A DNA stretch of 64,000 bases from assembly GCF_000526155.1 (NCBI RefSeq), contig NZ_JAFN01000001.1, positions 2,071,014 to 2,135,013 of the forward strand, read 5' to 3'. Positions 25-10,901 of this stretch are shown here, in pieces; the stretch's first letter is position 1; every line of letters begins with the position of its first letter. A program made the translations under genes and the position numbers. Origin of the DNA: Deferrisoma camini S3R1. GTDB taxonomy: Bacteria; Desulfobacterota; Deferrisomatia; Deferrisomatales; Deferrisomataceae. A model generated the notes under the pieces. That model saw only the letters and a program-made list of their open reading frames with translations, had not been told where the DNA came from and did no database searches.

Positions 25-1533
25 TTACGCGCTGTGCTCCTGCCGGAGCTTGTACTTCATGACCTTGCCGCTCGGGGTGTGGGGAAGCTCCTCCACGAAC
101 CGGAACACCCTGGGGATCTTGTACCGGGCCAGCCTGGGGGCGAGGAACGCGGCCAGATCCTCCGCCTCCAAGGTCTCCCCGGCCACGGGCACCACGTAGG
201 CCACCACCGTCTCCCCCCAGGCCGGATGGGGCACCCCGATCACGGCCGCCTCGCGTACTTTGTCGTGCTCGGCGATGGCGTCCTCCACCTCCTTGGAGTA
301 CACGTTCTCGCCGCCGGTGACGATCATGTCCTTGAGGCGGTCCACGACATACAGGTACCCGTCGGCATCCATCCGGGCCACGTCGCCCGTGCGGTACCAC
401 CCGTCCCGGAACGCGGCTCGGGTGGCCTCCGGGTCCTTGAGGTATCCGGCCATGACGCTGTCCGCCTTGAGCCAGATCTCGCCCGTCTCCCCTGGGCCGG
501 CCTCCTCGGTCTCGGTCTTCATGAGCCGCAGGTCCGCTCCCGGAAGCCCCCGGCACCCGATGGACCCGGCCTTGTCCCGGTGGTCCTTGGGCCGGAGCAC
601 GGTGCCGGTGGGACCGGTCTCGGTCATGCCGTAGACCTGGTAGAACCGGTCGCTCCGGTACCGGGTCGTGAGCTCCCGCACGGTCTCCGGTGCGATGGGG
701 CCGCCGCCGTAGATCCAGGCCCGCATGGACGAGAGGTCGTAGCGGTCGAAGTCCGGGACCGTCTGGAGGGGCATCAGATAGGAGATCGGCGCCCCGAAGT
801 ACACGGTGCACCGCTCCTGCTGGATGGTCTCGAGGAAGTGAAGGGGGTGGTACTCCCGCAGAAGCACGGTCGTGCCGCCCACGTAGGCCGTGCCGAAGAA
901 CCAGTTGTTCAGGGGCGAGGAGTGCCAGATCGGCATGGCCATGAGCATCCGGTCGTCCTCGTCCAGGTGGACGGCCAGTGCCCCGGTGACGGCGGCCATG
1001 ACCACGCTTCGGTGGGTCAGCATGCATCCTTTGGGCCGGCCCGTGGTGCCGCTGGTGTACAGGATCTCGGCGAGGTCCTCGTCCGAGACCCGGACCGGGT
1101 GGTACGCCTCGGCTCCGTCGGCCCCGGTGTCGAACCGGTCGAACCCCTCGGCCGCCGAGTCCAGGGCCGCCTTTCCCACCGTGGCGGGGACCTGCCGGGC
1201 CACCGGCGCGAGGGTCCCGTCGAACAGAAACACCTTGGCCTCGCTGTGCTCCAGAATGTAAGCCACCTCCCCCGCCATGAGTTTGTGGTTCACCGGCACG
1301 ACCACGGCCCCGGCCTTGAGGGCCCCGAGCAGGGCGAACACGAAGTCCGGGGTGTTCTGGCTCATGATGGCCACGCGGTCTCCGGGGGAGATCCCCCATG
1401 CCTGGAACCGTGCGGCCACGGCCTCGGCCCTGCGCCTCAGCTCCTGGTACGTGTGGCTCTCCCCGCGGGCGCGGAGCGCCTCTTTGCGGGCCGATTGCCG
1501 GCTGTTCCGGTCTACGAGCTCAGCGAGGGTCAT
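25..1533 (-). CDS. AMP-forming acyl-CoA synthetase (ligase)
   Basis: This 502-residue protein belongs to the ANL superfamily. It activates a carboxylic acid as an acyl-adenylate and transfers it to CoA in the cytoplasm. The P-loop-like motif YTSGTTGRPKG is near residue 160, YGMTETG near residue 300, the YRTGD motif near 380, and the C-terminal lysine motif PHTPSGKVMK near 490. The start codon overlaps the end of the MerR gene by 14 bp, so the two are one transcriptional unit and translation is probably coupled. The regulator's neighbourhood suggests a fatty or branched-chain acyl substrate. The exact substrate cannot be read from the sequence. Confidence 0.9.
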   Translation of the reverse strand: MTLAELVDRNSRQSARKEALRARGESHTYQELRRRAEAVAARFQAWGISPGDRVAIMSQNTPDFVFALLGALKAGAVVVPVNHKLMAGEVAYILEHSEAKVFLFDGTLAPVARQVPATVGKAALDSAAEGFDRFDTGADGAEAYHPVRVSDEDLAEILYTSGTTGRPKGCMLTHRSVVMAAVTGALAVHLDEDDRMLMAMPIWHSSPLNNWFFGTAYVGGTTVLLREYHPLHFLETIQQERCTVYFGAPISYLMPLQTVPDFDRYDLSSMRAWIYGGGPIAPETVRELTTRYRSDRFYQVYGMTETGPTGTVLRPKDHRDKAGSIGCRGLPGADLRLMKTETEEAGPGETGEIWLKADSVMAGYLKDPEATRAAFRDGWYRTGDVARMDADGYLYVVDRLKDMIVTGGENVYSKEVEDAIAEHDKVREAAVIGVPHPAWGETVVAYVVPVAGETLEAEDLAAFLAPRLARYKIPRVFRFVEELPHTPSGKVMKYKLRQEHSA

Positions 1534-1945
1534 GGGACGCTCCTTCCTCCGAGAGGCGATCGAGGGTCTGCTCCAACGTCTCCATCGTGGCCCGGATGTC
1601 CTGCTCGAGCTCTGCCAGCTCCTTCTTCCGGCGTGCGATCTCCTCCAGTTTCGACCTTCCGTACGCCAGGCTTCGGCGGATCTGCTCGACCTCGGTCAGG
1701 TCCGTCTCGGGCATTCCGATCATCTCGGCGATCTCGTCCAGGGAGAACCCCAGCCGTTTGCCCCGAAGGATCAGCTTGAGGCGGCGCCGGTCCCCGCGGG
1801 TGTACACCCTCTGGTTACCCGCGCTGCGGCGGGGCGTCAGCAGGCCCCTCTCCTCGTAGTAGCGGATGGCTCGGGGGCTGATGTCGAACTCCGCGGCCAG
1901 CTCGGAGATGGAATAGGTCCGCTCCCCAGATCGTCCTCCGGACAC
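1520..1945 (-). CDS. MerR-family transcriptional regulator
   Basis: This 141-residue protein has a winged helix-turn-helix at residues about 10-75, with the family signature AIRYYEERGLL and the following NQRVYTRGD wing. A long helical dimerisation coiled coil fills residues 85-135. There is no C-terminal metal-binding cysteine pair, so it is probably not a metal sensor. It heads an operon with an acyl-CoA ligase, and the palindrome at 1975-1990 just upstream fits an autoregulatory operator. This resembles LiuR-type MerR regulators of acyl-CoA catabolism, which is an inference from motif and context. Confidence 0.88.
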   Translation of the reverse strand: MSGGRSGERTYSISELAAEFDISPRAIRYYEERGLLTPRRSAGNQRVYTRGDRRRLKLILRGKRLGFSLDEIAEMIGMPETDLTEVEQIRRSLAYGRSKLEEIARRKKELAELEQDIRATMETLEQTLDRLSEEGASHDPR

Positions 1946-1974
1946 GGCTCGCCTCCTCGCCCCCAGAATTAACG

Positions 1975-1990
1975 TTTACGTCAACGTAAA
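1975..1990. promoter_or_regulatory. Palindromic operator upstream of the MerR gene
   Basis: TTTACGT and ACGTAAA form perfect 7-bp inverted arms separated by two bases, 29 bp upstream of the MerR start. The arms resemble the ACGT-centred sites reported for LiuR-like MerR regulators. This is the only sharp palindrome in the 550-base gap 1946-2497. The rest of the gap holds a promoter at 2285-2312 and no convincing gene. Confidence 0.7.
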
Positions 1991-2284
1991 GGATGGCTGG
2001 CAGCCTGTCAAGCGGAAAACATCCCCGCCAGCACGAGAACCGCCGACGGGAACGGTTCGAGCGGAAGACCGGAGGGAGAGAGGGGAACGGGCACCCCCAA
2101 ACCCAAAAATCTTGAGTCTGCTCATGGGGAGGGCTTTAGTCGCATGGCGCACCGGACGATAGAGAATGCCGGAACGACTTGCATGGGACCCGAGGCCAAG
2201 CTCCGTCCGTGCTACCAGGCTCCCTTGCACAACTCCTCTCTGCCGGTAGGATACCGGGCGGGAAACGGCTCCGGAATCGCCGCC

Positions 2285-2312
2285 TTGACAAGTAGCTCAC
2301 AGGGTTTATAAG
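2285..2312 (+). promoter_or_regulatory. Sigma-70-type promoter for the mini-lipoprotein pair
   Basis: TTGACA at 2285-2290 and TATAAG at 2307-2312 are separated by 16 bp. The start of transcription would leave an untranslated leader of roughly 175-180 bases before the first mini-lipoprotein. No recognisable riboswitch was found in that leader. Confidence 0.65.
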
Positions 2313-2497
2313 CGAGCCTCGTCCCAAACAGTCGACCACCACAAGGGGACAAGACCGGCGTGGCCCGTCGGCTCCAAGGGCCGGAATCGGGCCTGCTCCC
2401 GGCGTGGTGCTCGGATTCCTTTCGGCGGTGGTATCGGCCCCACACGGGGCATCCTCGTTGGTCCGCTGGAGCCCCCAACCCGAACAGGAGGAATGTC

Positions 2498-2674
2498 ATG
2501 AAAAAGATTCTCGCGCTCGCGACCCTCGGTTTCGCCTTCGTCGCCTTCGGGTGCGCGGGCACCCAGACCCGCCAGCAGGCTCCGATCACCAAGCAGACCC
2601 AGGTCAAATGTCCCAAGTGCGGCGTGACCTTCACCGTGGGCGAGGGGCTGAAGGCGTACGAACAGACCAAGTGA
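2498..2674 (+). CDS. Small lipoprotein with a CPKCG motif (copy 1)
   Basis: The protein has 58 residues. AGGAGG at 2486-2491, six bases before the ATG, sets the start. A short signal peptide ends in a lipobox (FGCAG, Cys19), so the mature chain would be a lipid-anchored peptide of about 40 residues. It carries a single CPKCG knuckle followed by FTVGEGLKA, resembling one half of a zinc ribbon or rubredoxin knuckle; two copies or a dimer would be needed for a full four-cysteine site. A near-identical paralogue follows at 2805. Function unknown. Confidence 0.82.
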   Translation: MKKILALATLGFAFVAFGCAGTQTRQQAPITKQTQVKCPKCGVTFTVGEGLKAYEQTK

Positions 2675-2804
2675 GGACCACGGCGCCTTTCGGGGCGACG
2701 ACCGGCCCGAGCGCAACACCACGGCATTTCCCCAGGAGGCAGAGCGTTTTCACCCCGGAGCGTTTCCTCGCTCCTCAACCCAATCGATCTATAGGAGGAA
2801 CGGC

Positions 2805-2981
2805 ATGAAAAAGATCCTCGCACTCACTGTTCTCGGCTTCGCCCTCGTGGCCTTCGGGTGCGCCGGCACCCAGACCCGCCAGGAGACCCCGGTCACCAAG
2901 CAGACCAAGATCAAGTGCCCCAAGTGCGGCATGACCTTCACCGTGGGCGAGGGGCTGAAGGCGATCGAGAAGACGCGGTAG
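2805..2981 (+). CDS. Small lipoprotein with a CPKCG motif (copy 2)
   Basis: This tandem paralogue of the gene at 2498 has the same length (58 residues), the same lipobox at Cys19 and the same CPKCG-MTFTVGEGLKA core. Most differences lie in the linker and C-terminus. AGGAGG at 2793-2798 lies six bases before the ATG. The pair shares one promoter (2285-2312) and one terminator (3014-3056). The conserved knuckle against a varied linker suggests a retained metal- or thiol-related role at the membrane surface. No function is known to me. Confidence 0.82.
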   Translation: MKKILALTVLGFALVAFGCAGTQTRQETPVTKQTKIKCPKCGMTFTVGEGLKAIEKTR

Positions 2982-3013
2982 GCTCTGCGTAACGGCGAAA
3001 CCGCCAACGAGGG

Positions 3014-3056
3014 AAGCGGCGGCCGGAACGCGGATTCCGGCCGCCGCTTCGGTTTT
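3014..3056 (+). terminator. Rho-independent terminator after the mini-lipoproteins
   Basis: A perfect 15-bp stem (3014-3028 with 3035-3049), a six-base loop and a following TTTT run lie 33 bases after the second mini-lipoprotein. The convergent radical-SAM gene ends 35 bases further on. Confidence 0.88.
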
Positions 3057-3090
3057 GAACCGGAAGCTCTCCGCGGCCGAGCGCCCGGAA

Positions 3091-4560
3091 TCAGGATCGG
3101 ATCTGCGGCCGACCGGCGCAGTACGGGTCGCGGGTCTCGAAGGCGTCGAGCCCGAACCCGCTCGCGCTCGCCAGGCACCCCCCGCACACCGGCCGCACGG
3201 CGCAGCCGCGGCAGGCGCTCGGGCCCGCCCGGTACCCGGCGGCCCGGGGGGAGTCGTAGATCTCGGCCAGGCTCTGGACCCGCAGGTTCCCGATGGGAGA
3301 GGGGAACTTCCGGCAGGCGTGGACCTCTCCGTCCGGGAGCAGGCTCAGAAAGTTGAACGCCGCGCCGCACCCGAACCCCGTGCAACCGCCGAACACCGGC
3401 TCGCCCCTCTGGTACCGCAGCGGGTTGAACAGGTTGTCCTTGAGGCCCAGCATGGGGTTGGTTTGCGTGGCGGCCAGGTACTCCTCAAGGAACGCCCGGT
3501 ACCGCTCCCTCGGCACGACCGGCAGGCCGGCTCCCTCCCCCACGGGCGAGAGCCGGTTGAAGTGGAACCGGTCCACCCGGCCCCGAAGCAGCTCGGCCAA
3601 CGGCAACACCTGGTCCACGTTGTCCTGGGTCAGGGTGAGCATGACCATCGAGAACACCCCGAGCTCCCGCAGGAGGTCGAGGAACTCCAGGGTGCGCTCG
3701 AAGTGCCCGGGGCCTCGGATCGCGTCGTTGTGCTCCTCGAGACCCTCCAGGCTCACCTGGAAGACCTCGGGAGGGTGGATCGCACACAGGGCCTCGATCG
3801 GTTCACGGGGCGAGGGGTTGCCCAGCACCGTGAGCCCGAAGCCCCGGTCCGCCGCCTCGCGGTAGAGGTCGAGGAAGCGCGGGTGAAGCAGGGGGTTCCC
3901 GCCCGTGAAGGTCACGTGGCCCCGCACCCGCCGCTGCCGGCAGAATCGGTGGAGGTCGTCGAGCACCCGGACGGCCTCGGCATAGGGCAGCAGATCCCTG
4001 GCGCTGCGGTCGTAGCAGTGCCGGCACCGCAGGTCGCAGGCCTGGGTGAGGTGCCACTGCAAGGTGAACACCGGGGCGACCAGGAACTCCTCCCACCCGC
4101 GCAGGTCCACGCCGAGCTGACGGGGGTCGCGGCGGAGGAGCGGGGGTGGGGCCAGCACCAGCCCCTCGTCCTGGGCCCGGCCCAGGATCGTTTCGATCCG
4201 GCCCACCGGCACGCCCCCCTCCCGGGCCGCGTCCTCCGGGGGAATCCCCTCCACCACGATCTTGAGGGCCAGAAGGTCCTCCGGGGCTGCGGCCTTGGCC
4301 CGGGCCTCCCCCCCTGGGGGTTTCCACACCAGCACGAGCCGTTCTCCAGGGCCCGGTGGCGTAGCCGGCGGCGCGTCCGAGGCCACCAACTCCGGGAGGC
4401 CCCGCCACCCCACCCGCACGACCGAGAGAGTGGGGTTGACCGCGGCCGCTTCGGCAGGAAGCTCGGGGTCGGGGGCGGACGCCGCCTCGGAAAGGGCCCG
4501 CTCCAGGCGGGCCAGGTCCGCGGCGAAAGGGGGCGCTTTGGCATCCGTGGGTTTCGGCAT
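3091..4560 (-). CDS. Radical SAM/SPASM peptide maturase (SbtM-like)
   Basis: This 489-residue enzyme carries the radical SAM CX3CX2C motif (Cys175, Cys179, Cys182, in ACDLRCRHCYD), followed by TFTGGNPLLHP. Its cysteine-rich C-terminal SPASM region (GCTGFGCG, HACRKFPSPIGN, CRGCAVRPVCGGC, DPYC) would hold auxiliary Fe-S clusters. The first 150 residues resemble a peptide-recognition region. Such enzymes modify ribosomal peptides. The gene immediately follows the selenocysteine-rich precursor peptide at 4707-4940. That pairing and the peptide's repeats match what I recall as the SbtA/SbtM ('selenobiotic') type. The chemistry performed is not shown by the sequence. Confidence 0.88.
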   Translation of the reverse strand: MPKPTDAKAPPFAADLARLERALSEAASAPDPELPAEAAAVNPTLSVVRVGWRGLPELVASDAPPATPPGPGERLVLVWKPPGGEARAKAAAPEDLLALKIVVEGIPPEDAAREGGVPVGRIETILGRAQDEGLVLAPPPLLRRDPRQLGVDLRGWEEFLVAPVFTLQWHLTQACDLRCRHCYDRSARDLLPYAEAVRVLDDLHRFCRQRRVRGHVTFTGGNPLLHPRFLDLYREAADRGFGLTVLGNPSPREPIEALCAIHPPEVFQVSLEGLEEHNDAIRGPGHFERTLEFLDLLRELGVFSMVMLTLTQDNVDQVLPLAELLRGRVDRFHFNRLSPVGEGAGLPVVPRERYRAFLEEYLAATQTNPMLGLKDNLFNPLRYQRGEPVFGGCTGFGCGAAFNFLSLLPDGEVHACRKFPSPIGNLRVQSLAEIYDSPRAAGYRAGPSACRGCAVRPVCGGCLASASGFGLDAFETRDPYCAGRPQIRS

Positions 4561-4693
4561 CCGTCCCTATCCTTCTTGTGGCTCACCCCGCCCGAGGAAC
4601 CCGAGGCCGTTTCCCCGTCGGGCGGAACGGGGGAAACGGCCTCGCGACCTTTCGGACAGCTATCTACCGTGATCTCACCACATCCGGACGGGC

Positions 4694-4708
4694 AGCGCGG
4701 ACCGCGCT
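4694..4708 (-). promoter_or_regulatory. SECIS-like hairpin after the third UGA of the precursor
   Basis: AGCGCG and CGCGCU pair around a GUC loop that starts 29 nucleotides from the third UGA and extends beyond the TAG stop. The loop is less canonical than in the other two hairpins, but the position is right. Confidence 0.5.
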
Positions 4709-4940
4709 ACTGGTTCTTGGAGCCCGTTCAGGACCCCTGGCCTCCCGTCTTCTGCATGTCTTTGGTGCCGCCGGCACCATCTTTGGCGCCCGTTCAGCCG
4801 GTGCTACCTGCACCGGTCTTCTGGCCGGCTCAGCTCCCGTGGGCCCGCCCCGCGCAGCCCGTCAGGCCGAGGGTCGTCCCCGCCAGCAGCCCCGCCACGC
4901 TGAACCCGGCGAGCACCTTCTTCAACAGGGTGCGGTCCAT
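4707..4940 (-). CDS. Selenocysteine-containing RiPP precursor peptide (SbtA-like), three in-frame UGA codons
   Basis: A perfect Shine-Dalgarno (AGGAGGTGA at 4945-4953) precedes the ATG at 4940. The first 36 codons give a hydrophobic leader (MDRTLLKKVLAGFSVAGLL, then LTGCAG). Standard translation stops at UGA (4830-4832). Reading UGA as selenocysteine (U) continues with the same composition through UGA at 4794-4796 and 4728-4730 to a TAG at 4707-4709, giving 77 residues with U at 37, 49 and 71. The contexts are repeated: GSU-AGQK, TGU-TGAK, GSU-TGSK, in a Gly/Thr/Lys-rich core. A radical SAM/SPASM maturase follows. Automated callers will truncate or miss this gene. SelB and tRNA-Sec are not in the window. 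Confidence 0.85.
4764..4778 (-). promoter_or_regulatory. SECIS-like hairpin after the second UGA of the precursor
   Basis: GGUGCC and GGCACC pair perfectly around a GGC loop. The loop GG again lies at nucleotides 25-26 from the UGA, exactly the spacing seen for the first UGA. Confidence 0.65.
4798..4816 (-). promoter_or_regulatory. SECIS-like hairpin after the first UGA of the precursor
   Basis: In the mRNA, CCGGTGC and GCACCGG pair perfectly around the loop AGGUA. The loop GG falls at nucleotides 25-26 counted from the U of the UGA. Bacterial SECIS elements sit in this window and expose GG(U) in the apical loop; the E. coli fdhF hairpin has a very similar GC-AGGUCU-GC tip. Confidence 0.75.
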
Positions 4941-5027
4941 GTCCTCACCTCCTTTGCGTGCCCGGCCGACGCCCGGACCGCCCCACCGGGCCGACCGGAT
5001 CGGGATTCCCCATGGACCGCGGGCGCC

Positions 5028-5046
5028 GTTCGGGAGCGTCCCGAAC
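5028..5046. repeat. Inverted repeat between the P-type ATPase and the precursor gene
   Basis: GTTCGGGA and TCCCGAAC form a perfect 8-bp inverted repeat with a three-base spacer, about 80 bp upstream of the selenopeptide Shine-Dalgarno. It could be an operator of the peptide operon or a hairpin ending the ATPase transcript. No U-tract follows. Confidence 0.35.
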
Positions 5047-5191
5047 CATCGACGTTCCCGATGCACACCGACATTCCCATGGGGGATGCCGATCAAGGTA
5101 CCCGGGCCCGTCGGCTCGTCAAGCGATCACCGCGCACAGGCCCGGAGGGGCGATCCAGCCCCTGCGACTTCGGGAGCAGGAATTCGGCGCT

Positions 5192-7657
5192 CTACCGCCG
5201 CCCCCCGAAGGCGTGCAGCGGTCGGGCGAGGCGGGCGAGGAAGTGGCGATGGCGGCGCACCTCGTGTCCCATGTGGCGGTAGACCTCCACCTTGACGAAG
5301 TCGGTGACCACCGCCGAGACGACCGAGTAGCCCCACACCAGGGCGATCTCCGGCCAGGTGATGGGGGTGATCAGGCCGAAGCCGTACGCGGCCAGCAGGG
5401 TCGCCGCCAGCTTGGTGACCACCGCCGACCAGACCACGACCGGGGCCGGCCACGGGCGTTCCCAGAAGTGCCCTTTCGTGCGACCCACGAACAACACGAG
5501 GTGGCCGGCCACGGCCATCTTCAGGAACACGTAGGTCTGGATCTGGGCCACGTCCAGCTTGAGCCAGTCCATGGCGATCAGAAGCATGCCGAAGCTGCCC
5601 ACCACGCCGACGACGCCCATGGCCGTGGCCACGGTGATCACCTGGTGCATCTGCCAGCTCACCGGCCGCTGCTCCGCGCGGGTGCGGTCGTAGGCGATGG
5701 TCATGATCGGCACGTCGTTGAGGAAGGCGAGGAGGATGATCATGATCGCGGTGATCGGGTAGAAGTCGAACGCCATCATCGCCCCCACCACGAAGAACAT
5801 GATCCGGATGGTCTCGCTGATCCGGTACACCGCGTACGCGTGCATCCGCCCGAAGATCCGCCTCGCCTCCTCGATGGCGCTGATGATCACCGACAGACCC
5901 GGCTCCGTGAGCACCAGGTCGGCGGCGGCGCGGGCCGCGTCCGTGGCTCCGCTCACGGCCACCCCCACGTCCGCCTGCTTCAGCGCGGGGGCGTCGTTCA
6001 CCCCGTCCCCGGTCATGCCCGTGATGTGGCCCCGGGCTTGGAGCAGCTTGACGATGGCAAACTTGTGCTCGGGAAAGACCTCGGCAAAGCCATCGGCCCG
6101 CTCGACCGCTTCGCCGTCTCCCGCGCCGAGCCCCCCCTTCGGGTCGAGGGGAAGTCGGCTGGCCGGCAGGAGGTTGTCCCCCAACCCCAGCTTCCGCGCG
6201 ATCTGCGCCGCAATAGCCAGGTTGTCCCCCGTGACCATCTTCACGTGTACGCCGTAGGCCTCGGCCCGGGCGATGGTCTCGGCCGAATCCTCCTGGGGGG
6301 GGTCGAACAGGGAGAGAACACCGAGAAAGGTCCACTTCCCCTCGCCCACCTCCCGCCGAGCCACCCCCAAGGCCCGGTACCCTTCCGCGGCAAAGGCGTC
6401 CACCGCCTCCTGGACCTGTCGGCGCTCCTCCGCCGTGAGGGCCGACATCCCCATGATCACCTGGGGGGCCCCCTTGGCGACCTGAAACGCCCTGCCGGCC
6501 TCGTCCTCCACCGTGGCCTCGGTGCGTTTGCGCACCGGGTCGAACGGCACAAAAGCCGACACCCGGTACCTCCGAAGCGCCCCCTGATCCTCCAGTCCGT
6601 CCAGCACCGCCTGGTCGATGGCGTCCCGGTCCTCGGCCCGCGACGCCAGGGCCGCGGCCACCAGGACCTCCTGGGGGCTCGCTGCGCGCAAGACCTTGAT
6701 CTCACCCAGCGTCAGGCGGTTCTGGGTGAGGGTGCCCGTCTTGTCCGAGCACAGCACGTCCATGCTCGCCATCTCTTCGATGGATTCCAGCCGGGTCACG
6801 ATGGCCTTCTTCCGGGACAGCGCGGCCGCGCCCACGGCCATGGTCATGGAGAGCACCGCGGGCATGGCGACCGGGATGGACGCCACGGTCAAAATCAAGG
6901 CGAACTGGATCAGGTCCAGCCAGGGGGAGCCCCGGTGGAGCTGCTGGAGGAGGAGCACGGCCACCAGGGCGAGGCTCACGTAGATTAGATAGTCGCCGAT
7001 GGTCAGAACCGCCTTCTGGAAGTGGGAGACGGTCCGAGCCTGCTCCACCAGCCGGGCGGTCTTCCCGAACCGGGTGTCCTTGCCCGTGGCCACCACCTCG
7101 GCCACCACCTCGCCCTGCTTGGCCACCGTGCCCGAGTACGCCGTGTCCCCCTCCCGGACGGTCACCGGCAGGGACTCGCCGGTGAGGGCCGACTGGTCCA
7201 CGCTGAGGTAGTCCCCCTGGAGGATCTTCACATCGGCCGGGATCACGTCCCCCAGCCGCACCCGGATGACGTCGCCCGGCACCAGGGCGGACGCGTCGAT
7301 CTCCTGCCACTTTCCATCACGCAGTACCTTCGCCCTGTGGGCCAGCTGCTTCTTGAGGGCCTCCACGGCGTTGCCGGCGGTGTACTCCTGCCAGAACCCC
7401 ACCGCCGCGTTGAAGATCAGGAGGCCCACGATGATCCAGAAGTCCGCCCAATGTTGAACGACGGCCGAAAGCACCGCCGCCACCTCGATCATCCACGGGA
7501 TCGGGCCCCAGAAGTACCCGAGCAGCCGAAGCAAGGTGGAGACGCGCTCCTCCTCCAAGGCGTTCGAACCGTACTTTCGGAGCCGCAGGGCCGCCTCGCG
7601 GGACGTGAGCCCCCGGAGCTCGGCGGAGCCCTTCCGTGCCTCGCTACCCTCTCCCAT
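5192..7657 (-). CDS. Plasma-membrane-type proton-pumping P-type ATPase
   Basis: This 821-residue P-type ATPase has the subfamily IIIA layout: a cation-ATPase N-terminal segment, TGES at 159-162, the PVAMP membrane motif at 262-266, the phosphorylated aspartate in DKTGTLT (Asp305) and the hinge motif TGDGVNDAPALK. About ten membrane segments are visible. Length and motifs match archaeal and bacterial H+-ATPases related to fungal Pma1 rather than heavy-metal or Ca2+ pumps, as there is no CPC/CPx motif and no N-terminal metal domain. The start at 7657 follows AGGAGG (7666-7671); reading further upstream gives a non-homologous Gly/Arg-rich tail. It exports protons, or acts in pH homeostasis. Confidence 0.9.
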   Translation of the reverse strand: MGEGSEARKGSAELRGLTSREAALRLRKYGSNALEEERVSTLLRLLGYFWGPIPWMIEVAAVLSAVVQHWADFWIIVGLLIFNAAVGFWQEYTAGNAVEALKKQLAHRAKVLRDGKWQEIDASALVPGDVIRVRLGDVIPADVKILQGDYLSVDQSALTGESLPVTVREGDTAYSGTVAKQGEVVAEVVATGKDTRFGKTARLVEQARTVSHFQKAVLTIGDYLIYVSLALVAVLLLQQLHRGSPWLDLIQFALILTVASIPVAMPAVLSMTMAVGAAALSRKKAIVTRLESIEEMASMDVLCSDKTGTLTQNRLTLGEIKVLRAASPQEVLVAAALASRAEDRDAIDQAVLDGLEDQGALRRYRVSAFVPFDPVRKRTEATVEDEAGRAFQVAKGAPQVIMGMSALTAEERRQVQEAVDAFAAEGYRALGVARREVGEGKWTFLGVLSLFDPPQEDSAETIARAEAYGVHVKMVTGDNLAIAAQIARKLGLGDNLLPASRLPLDPKGGLGAGDGEAVERADGFAEVFPEHKFAIVKLLQARGHITGMTGDGVNDAPALKQADVGVAVSGATDAARAAADLVLTEPGLSVIISAIEEARRIFGRMHAYAVYRISETIRIMFFVVGAMMAFDFYPITAIMIILLAFLNDVPIMTIAYDRTRAEQRPVSWQMHQVITVATAMGVVGVVGSFGMLLIAMDWLKLDVAQIQTYVFLKMAVAGHLVLFVGRTKGHFWERPWPAPVVVWSAVVTKLAATLLAAYGFGLITPITWPEIALVWGYSVVSAVVTDFVKVEVYRHMGHEVRRHRHFLARLARPLHAFGGRR

Positions 7658-8306
7658 GGCAATGCCCTCCTGGGCCCGCAGGCCCCTGTCTCCCCCCCGA
7701 CTCCCCAAGACCGGCCCGCCACGATCTTCGCCAAGACACCCCCTGGGAGCGAGCTGGGACCTCCGGCAGCTGGGACCTCCGGCAGGGGAGCCGCGAACCC
7801 GGGCACGCGGGCCTGCTCGCCCCGGGGACGCCCCCAACCTACTGCGGCCGCGCCCCTCCCGCAACGCGCCCCCGGGGATGGGGACCACCCCTAACGGGTA
7901 ACAAAAATACCCACCCGGCCATCTAGTATTCGAACCCCGCCCCACTAGGATACGAAGGCAGCTTTGGCATAGCAGTTCCTGAACATTTTTTCCAAGCCAT
8001 CACGACTCGGGAGGAGGCCGCCTCCCCCCTTCCTCCCCGCGCACGGGGAACTCAAGTCCATCCGTCCCTCACGAGGCCCCGGATCTGGCCACCGGTCTAA
8101 GCGCGTTCGGCCCTTGGGGCGCGAACGGCGAGAGAAACCCCAATGGTGTCCCGCCTCCCCCGTGGGTCCCGGAACGGGCCCCCGGCCCCCCCGGCGTGTC
8201 TTCGCATACGGGCCCCTCCGGCATGGTTCCGGTGCCGGGCGGGCCGGTCTCCGTATCCGCCCGGCAAGGCGCTTTCTCTTGGTTCCGACGAGGAAGGAGG
8301 CATGTC
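7658..8306. other. Divergent intergenic region, no gene
   Basis: About 650 bases separate the divergent ATPase and lipoprotein genes. I see no coding sequence. The region holds a candidate sigma-54 promoter at 7965-7980 and short GC-rich inverted repeats such as that near 8011-8030. Confidence 0.5.
7965..7980 (+). promoter_or_regulatory. Candidate sigma-54 (-24/-12) promoter
   Basis: TGGCAT-AGCAG-TTCCT matches the -24/-12 consensus TGGCAYRNNNNTTGCW at all but one defined base (C for G in the -12 element). It points toward the lipoprotein gene at 8307. No enhancer site was identified. Confidence 0.35.
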
Positions 8307-10901
8307 ATGGGAAGGTGGAGAAGAGGCGTACAGGCAGCGCTCACCGCGGGCTCGATGTTGGTCCTGCTCGGGGGCTGCGGGGGGACGACGGACAACGGAT
8401 TGGGCACCGCGACGGGCGGCGGCACCGGCGGCTCCCGGATTGGGTTGAAAGTGGCTGTGCCGGTTCCCATCCCAACCGATTTCTGCGCGCGCATCCGGGT
8501 GAGCGGTGGGGACTTCACCCCGATCACCATGGACAAGGGGTACCCGGGCGGAACGAGCTCGGTGGAAACGGTGGTCCCAAACATCCCTGCCGGGCCCGAC
8601 CGGAGGGTGGAGCTCGGGCTGTTCGAGGACGGTGTGTGCGGAGAGTTCGGCCTGGCCGACTGGTACGGCACGGCCGTTGGCGTGAGCATCGCCCCCGGCG
8701 AGGTGACCATCGTGGAACTCACCCTCCAGTCCCTCAAGGGTCAGCCGACCACCGGGTCCATCGTGATCCGCGGCAACAAGGCCCTCACCCAACGGCGCCT
8801 GCACGGCGAGGTGGTGGGCCGGGACACCTTGGATCCGATCGCGGGGGCGGTGTGCAAGATTTTCAGCGGCCCCAATGAGATCGGAAGCGCGGTGAGCGGA
8901 TCGACCGCGGCGAACCTCGGGGTTCTCAATACCCTCGCGGAGGTGGACCTCGACACCGACACCCTCACCCTGGAGTGCACCCACCCGCTGTATCAGGCGG
9001 TCACGGAGACCGCTCTACTGATCCAAGACCCGGCCGACCCCCTGTTCGGCACCTTCATTGCGACCGTGGAGATGGTTCCGGGTGCGGCCAAGCTGCCCGT
9101 CTTCCAGGTCACCGGCAACGCGCTGTCCGAGGGGGCGGCGGGCGCTCTGGTCGAGTCCCTGGGCCTCGCCACCGAAGGAGTCCCCCTGGACGAGGGGGGG
9201 GCGTTGCGGTTCGTGGACCCGAAGCTCTATCAGGCCGTTCCCATGACGGCCCTGGGTGAGGTGCCCGAAGACGAGGAGGGGCAAGCCATCCAGGCAGAGG
9301 GGTTCGACTTCGACCAGATCGCCAAGATGCCGGTGCTGTCCCAGGCCGAGGCCTTGGCCCGGGTCAAAGAGGCGCTGGCCCAGGCCGGAGCGGACCCGGG
9401 GAAGGCCGGCGGGGCCCTGGAACCGGGCGTCTTCCTGAACAACACCCTGTTCGAGGCGTTCGATACCAAGGGGGAGGTGCTAGCCCGCACCGAGCTGGAG
9501 ACCCTGGTGAGCTACCGGTTCCGGCTCCACGGCCTGCCCCTGATCGGTCCCGGCGCGGACGTGCAGTTCTCCATGAACGGGGCCGGGCAGACCACCCAGG
9601 CCGTGTACTCCCTACCGGCCGTCCAGATGGGCGAGGAGATGGACCTGCTACCCCTGAACCAGGCCGCCGAACGGGCCCGGCGGCTCCTGCAGAGGGCGGC
9701 CGCGGCCCAGGGGCTTCCCGCCGCGGTTCGGGTGCTGCCGCCGCGGGTCGTGTACTACGCTCCCCCCCTGTCCCAGAACGTGCGGGTCATCGTTCCCCAC
9801 TACGAGTTCGGGGGCACCGTCCGGGTCGGCGACGAGGAGGTGTTCCTTCGCAACGTGCTCTTGCCCGCCGTAAAAGGCGGCCCCGAGATCTCCCTCGAGG
9901 TCACCGTGAACGGCGACGACACCGTGGTGGCCAGCGCCGTCCTGACCGGAGGCACGGAGCCGTTCACCTACCAGTGGACCTCGTCGAGCACCGCGTTGGA
10001 CCCCAAGGTGGCAACGGCAGGGCCCAACATCACCTACGTGCTCCTGCCCAAGGAGACGATCGCGGAGGAAACCGTGAGCCTGATCGTCACGGACGCCAAC
10101 GGCCTCGTGGGCTTCGCCAGCCAGACCGTGGAGGTGTCGGTGGCTCCCCCCCCCAAGCCCATGTTCCAGGTCGTTCCGATGACCGCCGGAGTCGTGGACT
10201 TCGGCGTGGAGTACGTGGGCACCTGCGGCGGCCTGCCGGGGTCGGCGGCCAACGCCTCGGGGTTCCGGAACGCGCTCCAGGGCAAGGGCTGGACGCGCCG
10301 GTTCTACTGGCCCGAGAACTCCGCTTGGGAGCAGGACTTCAAGGACCCGTCCAAACCCGGCGGGGACGACTCGAGCTGGGCCGACAACGCGGACTGGGTG
10401 TTCTACACGGGCCACGCCAACGGCAGCGGCTTCTCGTTTTGCAACAACACCCACACCGATGGGTTCCTCCGCTACACGGATGCGAAATGGGGGGACAAGG
10501 ACGTGGAGTGGATCACGATCGCGGCCTGCGGCCCGCTCCAGCAAACCTCGGGCGGCAAGTCTTGGGCAGCTAGATGGGGGCCCGCCTTTGACGGGCTTCA
10601 CATGATCATGGCCTACGCAACCACGAGCTACGACAACAGCAACGAGGGTCGTTTGCTCGCCGAGTGGGCCACCGGCAAGTCGTTCGGGTTCTTCACGTTT
10701 CCCCCCTTGCCGGTGCGCGCCGCCTGGGTCCAGACGGCCAAGCAGGTCCAGCCCAGCCAGGTCACCTGGGCGGTCATGGGGGTGATCGGCCGAAACGGAA
10801 TGTCCAACTACAACGACTACGTCCACGGTGCCGGCCCGGTGGGGCCGGACATCCGGGGAGCGGACATCGTAGGCTGGTGGAGGATCTCCGGGTCCTCGTG
10901 A
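8307..10901 (+). CDS. Large lipoprotein with Ig/PKD-like domain and DUF6345-like caspase-like C-terminus
   Basis: The protein has 864 residues. AGGAGG at 8295-8300 and a lipobox (LGGCGG, Cys24) fix the start and predict an outer-membrane or surface lipoprotein. Residues 25-520 are beta-rich with no family I recognise. An Ig/PKD-like domain follows at about 530-610 (TGGTEPFTYQW, VTDANG). The C-terminal 240 residues match my memory of DUF6345: VDFGVEYVG, then VFYTGHANG with His703, then WITIAACGP with Cys741. Two hydrophobic strands each ending in the catalytic-type His and Cys are the hallmark of clan CD cysteine peptidases, so a surface peptidase is plausible. It is convergent with a secreted serpin. 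Confidence 0.8.
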   Translation: MGRWRRGVQAALTAGSMLVLLGGCGGTTDNGLGTATGGGTGGSRIGLKVAVPVPIPTDFCARIRVSGGDFTPITMDKGYPGGTSSVETVVPNIPAGPDRRVELGLFEDGVCGEFGLADWYGTAVGVSIAPGEVTIVELTLQSLKGQPTTGSIVIRGNKALTQRRLHGEVVGRDTLDPIAGAVCKIFSGPNEIGSAVSGSTAANLGVLNTLAEVDLDTDTLTLECTHPLYQAVTETALLIQDPADPLFGTFIATVEMVPGAAKLPVFQVTGNALSEGAAGALVESLGLATEGVPLDEGGALRFVDPKLYQAVPMTALGEVPEDEEGQAIQAEGFDFDQIAKMPVLSQAEALARVKEALAQAGADPGKAGGALEPGVFLNNTLFEAFDTKGEVLARTELETLVSYRFRLHGLPLIGPGADVQFSMNGAGQTTQAVYSLPAVQMGEEMDLLPLNQAAERARRLLQRAAAAQGLPAAVRVLPPRVVYYAPPLSQNVRVIVPHYEFGGTVRVGDEEVFLRNVLLPAVKGGPEISLEVTVNGDDTVVASAVLTGGTEPFTYQWTSSSTALDPKVATAGPNITYVLLPKETIAEETVSLIVTDANGLVGFASQTVEVSVAPPPKPMFQVVPMTAGVVDFGVEYVGTCGGLPGSAANASGFRNALQGKGWTRRFYWPENSAWEQDFKDPSKPGGDDSSWADNADWVFYTGHANGSGFSFCNNTHTDGFLRYTDAKWGDKDVEWITIAACGPLQQTSGGKSWAARWGPAFDGLHMIMAYATTSYDNSNEGRLLAEWATGKSFGFFTFPPLPVRAAWVQTAKQVQPSQVTWAVMGVIGRNGMSNYNDYVHGAGPVGPDIRGADIVGWWRISGSS

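Follow-up and report, generated by a model that had tools for sequence, protein, structure and literature searches.

The window, the 64,000-nucleotide stretch of Deferrisoma camini S3R1 DNA analysed here, contains on its minus strand sbtA, a precursor gene with three in-frame UGA codons, followed by sbtM, which encodes a radical SAM/SPASM maturase. Curated models support the assignment of this locus to the SbtA/SbtM pair, a kind that is already known but little studied. With moderate confidence, we propose that the 77-residue SbtA peptide, with three selenocysteine (Sec) hairpins in its message, and SbtM together yield selenooxazoles on a likely exported lipoprotein that would bind soft metals such as copper. 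The genes and codons concerned are as follows.

4707..4940, minus strand: sbtA, precursor gene, 77 codons from ATG to TAG with three in-frame UGA (predicted Sec) codons (translation; TIGR04081)
4946..4953, minus strand: sbtA ribosome-binding site AGGAGGTG (sequence)
4830..4832, minus strand: UGA codon 37, predicted Sec (translation; hairpin-model search)
4794..4796, minus strand: UGA codon 49, predicted Sec (translation; hairpin-model search)
4728..4730, minus strand: UGA codon 71, predicted Sec (translation)
3091..4560, minus strand: sbtM, radical SAM/SPASM maturase, 489 amino acids, the next gene after sbtA (TIGR04082; Pfam Radical_SAM and SPASM)

Translation of the minus strand from 4940 to 4707 with UGA read as Sec gives MDRTLLKKVLAGFSVAGLLAGTTLGLTGCAGRAHGSUAGQKTGAGSTGUTGAKDGAGGTKDMQKTGGQGSUTGSKNQ, in which the UGA codons are 37, 49 and 71, the Sec residues are 12 and 22 residues apart, and the stop is TAG. 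A preliminary description of this DNA had given the same frame, together with the ribosome site (AAAGGAGGTG upstream of the ATG) and a radical SAM/SPASM enzyme that follows (4560-3091, same strand), and all of these were recovered. On the plus strand, 4707-4940 contains another open frame, which was rejected as not the one described. The SbtA leader scores 38.9 bits against the NCBIfam SbtA precursor model TIGR04081 (cut-off 30.5) and SbtM scores 676 bits against TIGR04082 (cut-off 350), so the SbtA/SbtM-type assignment, proposed earlier, holds. Each is the single match above its cut-off in the 4.24-Mb genome. Between the two genes, a strong inverted repeat, GAGGCCGTTTCCCC ... GGGGAAACGGCCTC, lies at window 4603-4643 (minus strand) and is possibly an attenuator or a processing site that sets the SbtA:SbtM ratio.

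Relatives were collected by an SbtM search of genome contigs (80 loci kept of 158 confirmed) and by a search of the phylum, in which 39 of 395 genomes, including the window's own, had SbtM over the cut-off and 29 new loci were taken. After removal of 5 duplicates this left 104 SbtM loci. With a family leader model seeded on 16 peptides, 85 of the 95 loci with at least 1000 nt upstream gave a leader match and 10 gave none. The candidate SbtA peptides total 96 in 89 loci; a looser precursor search of 19 loci, mostly without a leader match, returned one contig-edge fragment (L033) that is left out of the counts. The UGAs backed by a hairpin number zero, one, two, three, four and five in 1, 13, 36, 35, 6 and 1 of 92 peptides, window included, which makes two and three about equally common. 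Cys occupies the Sec motif at 19 sites across the relatives. Cys-type precursors occur in L077, L031 and L084, and mixed Cys/Sec precursors in L058, L072 and L091. One locus, L101, has two SbtA paralogues, one with four Sec and GAGST motifs and one that is Cys-only and lacks GAGST. In the two close relatives L007 and L008 the three UGAs fall at codons identical to those of the window sbtA, and the differences are synonymous or lie at codons 38, 50 and 62; sbtA identity is 220/231 and 222/231 bases and that of the upstream 150 bases is 122/150 and 130/150, respectively.

Insertion of Sec at the sbtA UGAs is very likely from these sequences. The genome encodes SelA, SelB and SelD and has a tRNA-Sec detected with both Rfam and ARAGORN, and its SelD gene has an in-frame TGA of its own in the context CG-U-AAK. 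The preliminary description had proposed looking for this machinery and for Sec or Cys in relatives; the machinery is complete, and Sec, or Cys, is kept in the same contexts after the first UGA. The genomes of L077 and L031, whose precursors are Cys-type, gave no SelB match, that of the Cys-type L084 gave one, and 4 of 4 Sec-type genomes tested have a match; the completeness of these genomes is not given. SelB co-occurrence as such was set aside as too weak to carry weight.

Each UGA is followed by its own hairpin of the bacterial Sec insertion sequence (bSECIS) type.

4798..4816, minus strand: bSECIS-type hairpin of UGA37, stem 7, loop AGGTA, loop start 20 nt past the UGA; encodes G-A-G-S-T
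4763..4779, minus strand: bSECIS-type hairpin of UGA49, stem 6, loop CGGCG, loop start 20 nt past the UGA; encodes G-A-G-G-T
4692..4710, minus strand: bSECIS-type hairpin of UGA71, stem 7, loop GGTCC, loop start 24 nt past the UGA; TAG stop in the 5' arm

These hairpins fit the bSECIS rules set out in the available text of PMC13188914, which call for a loop of 3-9 nt with a G within its first two places, 16-37 nt from the UGA. Across the relatives and the window, whose related loci are not independent, 145 of 166 internal UGAs have a hairpin. Dinucleotide shuffles gave a mean of 11.6 and at most 19, and random synonymous codons gave means of 23.6 with pooled codon usage and 39.0 with each gene's own usage (at most 36 and 51, respectively). 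For last UGAs, a class that takes in genuine stops and read-through tails, the count is 74 of 92, with 6.5 in shuffles. The internal-site count exceeds both the shuffle and the synonymous-codon expectations, and therefore selection acts on the RNA beyond the peptide. Nine final UGAs in a U-x-U arrangement look like true stops, and only 2 of these 9 have a hairpin, compared with 217 of the other 249 UGAs. After the last Sec the hairpin is often found at or past the stop codon: 58 of the 74 last-site hairpins have the stop ahead of the loop, and 31, like that of the window, have it overlapping the 5' arm. The strict hairpin rule misses E. coli fdhF and so under-counts hairpins.

A gapless alignment of 56 of the 93 eligible internal sites, each chosen for having a stem, has 78 cells changed on both sides of the stem, compared with 20 in shuffles and 2-16 in slid registers; changes on both sides occur at 5 of 6 pairs, a count that is not above shuffles. 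The covariance model R1 was built from these 56 of 93 sites with the window, L007, L008 and L106 left out, and was searched against the window's own genome. Its two best matches in that genome are UGA49 and UGA37, with 42.2 and 22.9 bits (E 3.2e-5 and 0.29, respectively). The third hairpin, which overlaps the stop after UGA71, was not recovered by R1, and an Rfam scan of window 4600-5000 gave nothing at E up to 1. A weak R1 match of 15.8 bits elsewhere in this genome (L138, C1:2413483-2413530) features a double TGA and then GGTGC-AGGTT-GTACC; it could be chance or another selenoprotein.

The hairpins also bear on a repeat in the peptide. A hairpin at an internal site, such as the first in the window, reads GGT GCA GGT AGC ACC, which encodes Gly-Ala-Gly-Ser-Thr. 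A loose pattern places a GAGST-like motif after 129 of 166 internal Sec residues, 12 of 92 last Sec residues and 1 of 19 Cys residues. The hairpin sequence encodes the motif and the motif tracks internal Sec, therefore the GAGST/GAGGT repeat is largely a coding shadow of the hairpin. The chemical unit of the SbtA core is probably S/G-U-G/S-G-x-K. The core was described earlier as rich in Gly, Thr and Lys, and this composition stands, but part of it comes from the RNA hairpins and not from peptide chemistry. The case is a clean example of a conserved peptide repeat that shadows an RNA signal, and it is relevant to predicting from sequence logos the cores of ribosomally synthesized and post-translationally modified peptides (RiPPs).

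The N-terminal part of SbtA was taken in the preliminary description as a RiPP leader. The segment has the look of a signal peptide for secretion or lipoprotein processing more than that of a classical RiPP leader.

4857..4940, minus strand: signal-peptide-like leader, amino acids 1-28 (KK and then an uncharged hydrophobic stretch; family statistics)
4854..4865, minus strand: lipobox L-T-G-C with Cys29 as the predicted lipidation site (sequence; family lipobox counts)

SbtA has the features of a bacterial lipoprotein, with a KK n-region, no charge at amino acids 9-26, and LTGC ending at residue 29. These features recur across 97 leaders (the 96 candidates of the relatives plus the window). All 97 have a basic residue at amino acids 2-9, and 93 have no charged residue at amino acids 9-26. 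A lipobox ends at amino acids 26-31 in 45 of 97 leaders, mostly as L/V/M-x-G-C at 28/29, and 34 of the 52 leaders without a lipobox have an [AV]xA site before the core. Such alternation between type I and type II cleavage sites behind one hydrophobic stretch is the behaviour of signal peptides. On the SbtM tree, made with a quick method from 103 rows of which 87 are labelled, the lipobox state changes at least 15 times, 6 of these forced by well-supported branches, and the mean for shuffled labels is about 29. The genome has LspA (150.7 bits, cut-off 25), and export of SbtA is probable from its sequence. In 71 long loci SbtM is present in 68 and the next gene family in only 6, by open reading frame calling that is rough in GC-rich loci such as L007. 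There is no other conserved neighbour gene, therefore a dedicated exporter or protease seems unnecessary for the pair. Lipidation of a RiPP precursor by the general pathway is described as demonstrated experimentally in the available text of PMC12636315.

Two further observations concern lipoboxes. In L053 (Olavius Delta 4 endosymbiont), sbtA codon 29, where the lipobox Cys would stand, is a UGA (LSAU) without a hairpin. The lipidation site may have been lost naturally, the UGA may be a sequencing error, or the lipobox may contain a selenocysteine. Beyond the 3' end of sbtM, the window has two near-identical tandem 58-residue putative lipoproteins with a lipobox and a CPKCG knuckle, at 2498-2674 and 2805-2981 (plus strand); a pattern search did not find them beside sbtM in L007-L115.

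The maturase features the following predicted domains and sites.

4141..4545, minus strand: SbtM amino acids 6-140, predicted recognition-element fold like NGO1945/HvfC
4015..4038, minus strand: radical SAM CxxxCxxC, Cys175/179/182 (invariant in 26 aligned SbtM)
3202..3369, minus strand: SPASM domain, amino acids 398-453 (Pfam PF13186; Cys invariant in 26 aligned SbtM)

The original SbtA/SbtM thio(seleno)oxazole RiPP study is reportedly that of Lewis et al. 2021. A homologous SbtM is described as removing four hydrogens from Cys and Sec peptides, and NMR identified the Cys product as a thiooxazole (PMC11002830, as far as its available text goes); by UV the product is grouped with 5-thiooxazole peptides in the accessible parts of PMC13097082 and PMC12538549. 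By analogy, SbtM is likely to modify the window SbtA. The N-terminal domain of SbtM models like the recognition domain of HvfC/NGO1945. The best PDB match of this model is 3dee, which is named in the text available from PMC13097082 as a partner protein (PME1) of 5-thiooxazole pathways. Additionally, HvfC is the commonest non-self NCBIfam family, with matches in 10 of the 75 SbtM N-domains scanned (105 available; best E 4.8e-6). A PDB sequence search with the N-domain profile gave a chance match alone (E 0.15). PF22106 had 0 matches over the cut-off in 80 genomes and its Caulobacter control was also below the cut-off, so an absence of captophorin partners is not claimable; a PF22106 match of 14.9 bits, third in the list, lies inside an SbtM (G282).

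The thiooxazoles of bufferins are described as sequestering copper in the periplasm, their precursors have signal peptides, and about 16% of Buf2 proteins have lipoprotein signals (PMC12452194, in its available text). Metal binding by modified SbtA would follow by analogy. In L077, a Cys-type locus of Candidatus Aceula, which we take to belong to the Omnitrophota, positions 1029-9200 encode a CusB-like protein, a CusA/CzcA-type efflux protein, a Cys-type SbtA, SbtM, a DoxX/HvfX-like protein and an NDH-2-like oxidoreductase. The sbtA-sbtM pair thus lies between a CusA/CzcA efflux system (1026 bits against TIGR00914, cut-off 701) and a DoxX protein whose sole NCBIfam match is HvfX, at 61.8 bits and below the cut-off of 80. 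This neighbourhood is the expected setting for a captophorin-like role, but it is one locus of 71. RND pumps occur within the flanks of 6 of 71 loci with types that look mixed by sequence, where L077 (CusA/CzcA-type) was the one RND-pump locus scanned, and the link to metals through such neighbours was rejected as family-wide evidence.

In the proposed mechanism, SelB would read UGA37, UGA49 and UGA71 as Sec, each via its own hairpin about 20-24 nt downstream. The HvfC-like N-terminal domain of SbtM would hold the precursor, probably by the signal-peptide leader, and the radical SAM/SPASM core would take four hydrogens from each Sec to form a 5-selenooxazole, as the homologous SbtM suggests. 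The general secretion/lipoprotein route would then export SbtA and lipidate Cys29, leaving an anchored 49-residue peptide with three seleno-rings. By analogy to the thiooxazoles of captophorins, these rings would act at the cell envelope as chelators of Cu(I) or similar soft metals.

The same observations bear on other explanations. That UGA37 is a true stop, giving a 36-residue peptide with the remainder untranslated, would agree with the only predicted homologue that turned up (1 match among 4 candidates), a 51-residue product that ends at the first UGA. This homologue partly bears out the earlier expectation that standard gene callers would miss sbtA, although NCBIfam does have a model of the family leader. 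A stop at UGA37 is highly improbable given the codon-wise conservation beyond it in L007 and L008, the hairpin after each UGA, the predominance of Sec-type cores among the relatives, a few of which have Cys in that motif instead, and the genome's Sec machinery. A redox or selenium-storage lipoprotein, whose Sec residues would act as unmodified or transiently modified selenols, for example against peroxide or mercury, is suggested by U-S-S-U pairs in L017, L070 and one L073 peptide and by C-P-K-C in the L101 Cys paralogue, and redox reactions are the presumed role of most known selenoprotein families of prokaryotes (PMC9312934, available text). However, the window core has no redox-like pair, its Sec residues lying 12 and 22 residues apart, and the four-hydrogen removal reported for a homologous SbtM would consume the selenol (PMC11002830), which makes this function unlikely.

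Repeated modified residues in a core are typical of RiPP natural products, and such residues are predicted for the SbtA core. A secreted antimicrobial or signalling selenopeptide would fit this pattern: after modification by SbtM and loss of the leader, its core would act on other cells; the family is also listed under the name 'Selenobacteriocin' in the available text of PMC13188914. Against such a product, no conserved exporter, leader protease or immunity gene was found near SbtM (the next family is in 6 of 71 loci, with the rough gene calling in GC-rich loci), and the leader end, a lipobox in 45 of 97 or an AxA site in 34 of 97, would hold the product at the envelope or periplasm. This function is unlikely. 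The preferred reading remains that of an anchored, metal-binding selenooxazole peptide. Radical SAM enzymes work without molecular oxygen, and SbtA/SbtM is likely an anaerobic, selenium-based equivalent of the captophorin pathways, which rely on oxygen and sulphur. More tentatively, the pair could be the anaerobic selenium branch of the copper-trapping thiooxazole peptides, in which a radical SAM enzyme with a fused HvfC-type recognition domain has replaced the oxygen-using MNIO and allows anaerobes to make lipid-anchored multi-selenooxazole metal traps at the envelope. In this view the GAGST blocks would be there to encode the Sec hairpins, leaving only the S/G-U-G/S-G-x-K units to the chemistry. 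The reading makes the function of the selenobacteriocin family testable. If it is true, an oxidase has twice been recruited to this chemistry, the two being unrelated but working with related recognition domains.

The literature searched, whose coverage did not extend to Lewis et al. 2021, gave no paper that connects SbtM with HvfC/PME1 or SbtA with lipoprotein signals. As far as these searches go, three points are new: the repeat originates largely in the RNA, the leader resembles a signal peptide, and SbtM has a domain predicted to be HvfC-like. The window further contributes a peptide in which three Sec codons fall within 41 residues; every one of them has a hairpin, and one hairpin shares its stem with the stop codon.

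Among the closest known systems is the SbtA/SbtM thio(seleno)oxazole RiPP, which has the same leader model, maturase model, gene order and Sec in S/G/T-G/S-U contexts. The window differs in its three Sec residues with a hairpin each and in its lipobox, whereas the published family entry gives SGUG and 2 Sec (PMC13188914, available text). At the RNA level, the apical hairpin of the E. coli fdhF Sec insertion sequence, TGC-AGGTCT-GCA, resembles TGC-AGGTA-GCA in the window, but the fdhF stem has an extra base and its loop starts 17 nt past the UGA, compared with 20-24 nt here. The DybA-type RiPP-lipoprotein hybrids also feature a RiPP precursor with an N-terminal lipobox signal that is modified before export; they differ in enzyme, motif and product, and lipidation of DybA was demonstrated in E. 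coli whereas that of SbtA is predicted (PMC12636315, in its available text). The captophorins (bufferins, oxazolin and fontiphorin) use an MNIO with a PME1 partner, HvfC or BufC. They share with SbtA/SbtM a reported 5-thiooxazole product, as described in the available sources, as well as signal-peptide precursors, which SbtA matches by its sequence features, and a recognition domain whose HvfC/NGO1945-like fold is, in SbtM, a prediction. MNIOs use molecular oxygen (PMC13097082, available text) and act with a separate partner, whereas SbtM is a radical SAM/SPASM protein with a predicted recognition domain fused to it, and SbtA has Sec instead of Cys and would bind copper by analogy. SbtA/SbtM is not filed as a captophorin because its maturase is not an MNIO.
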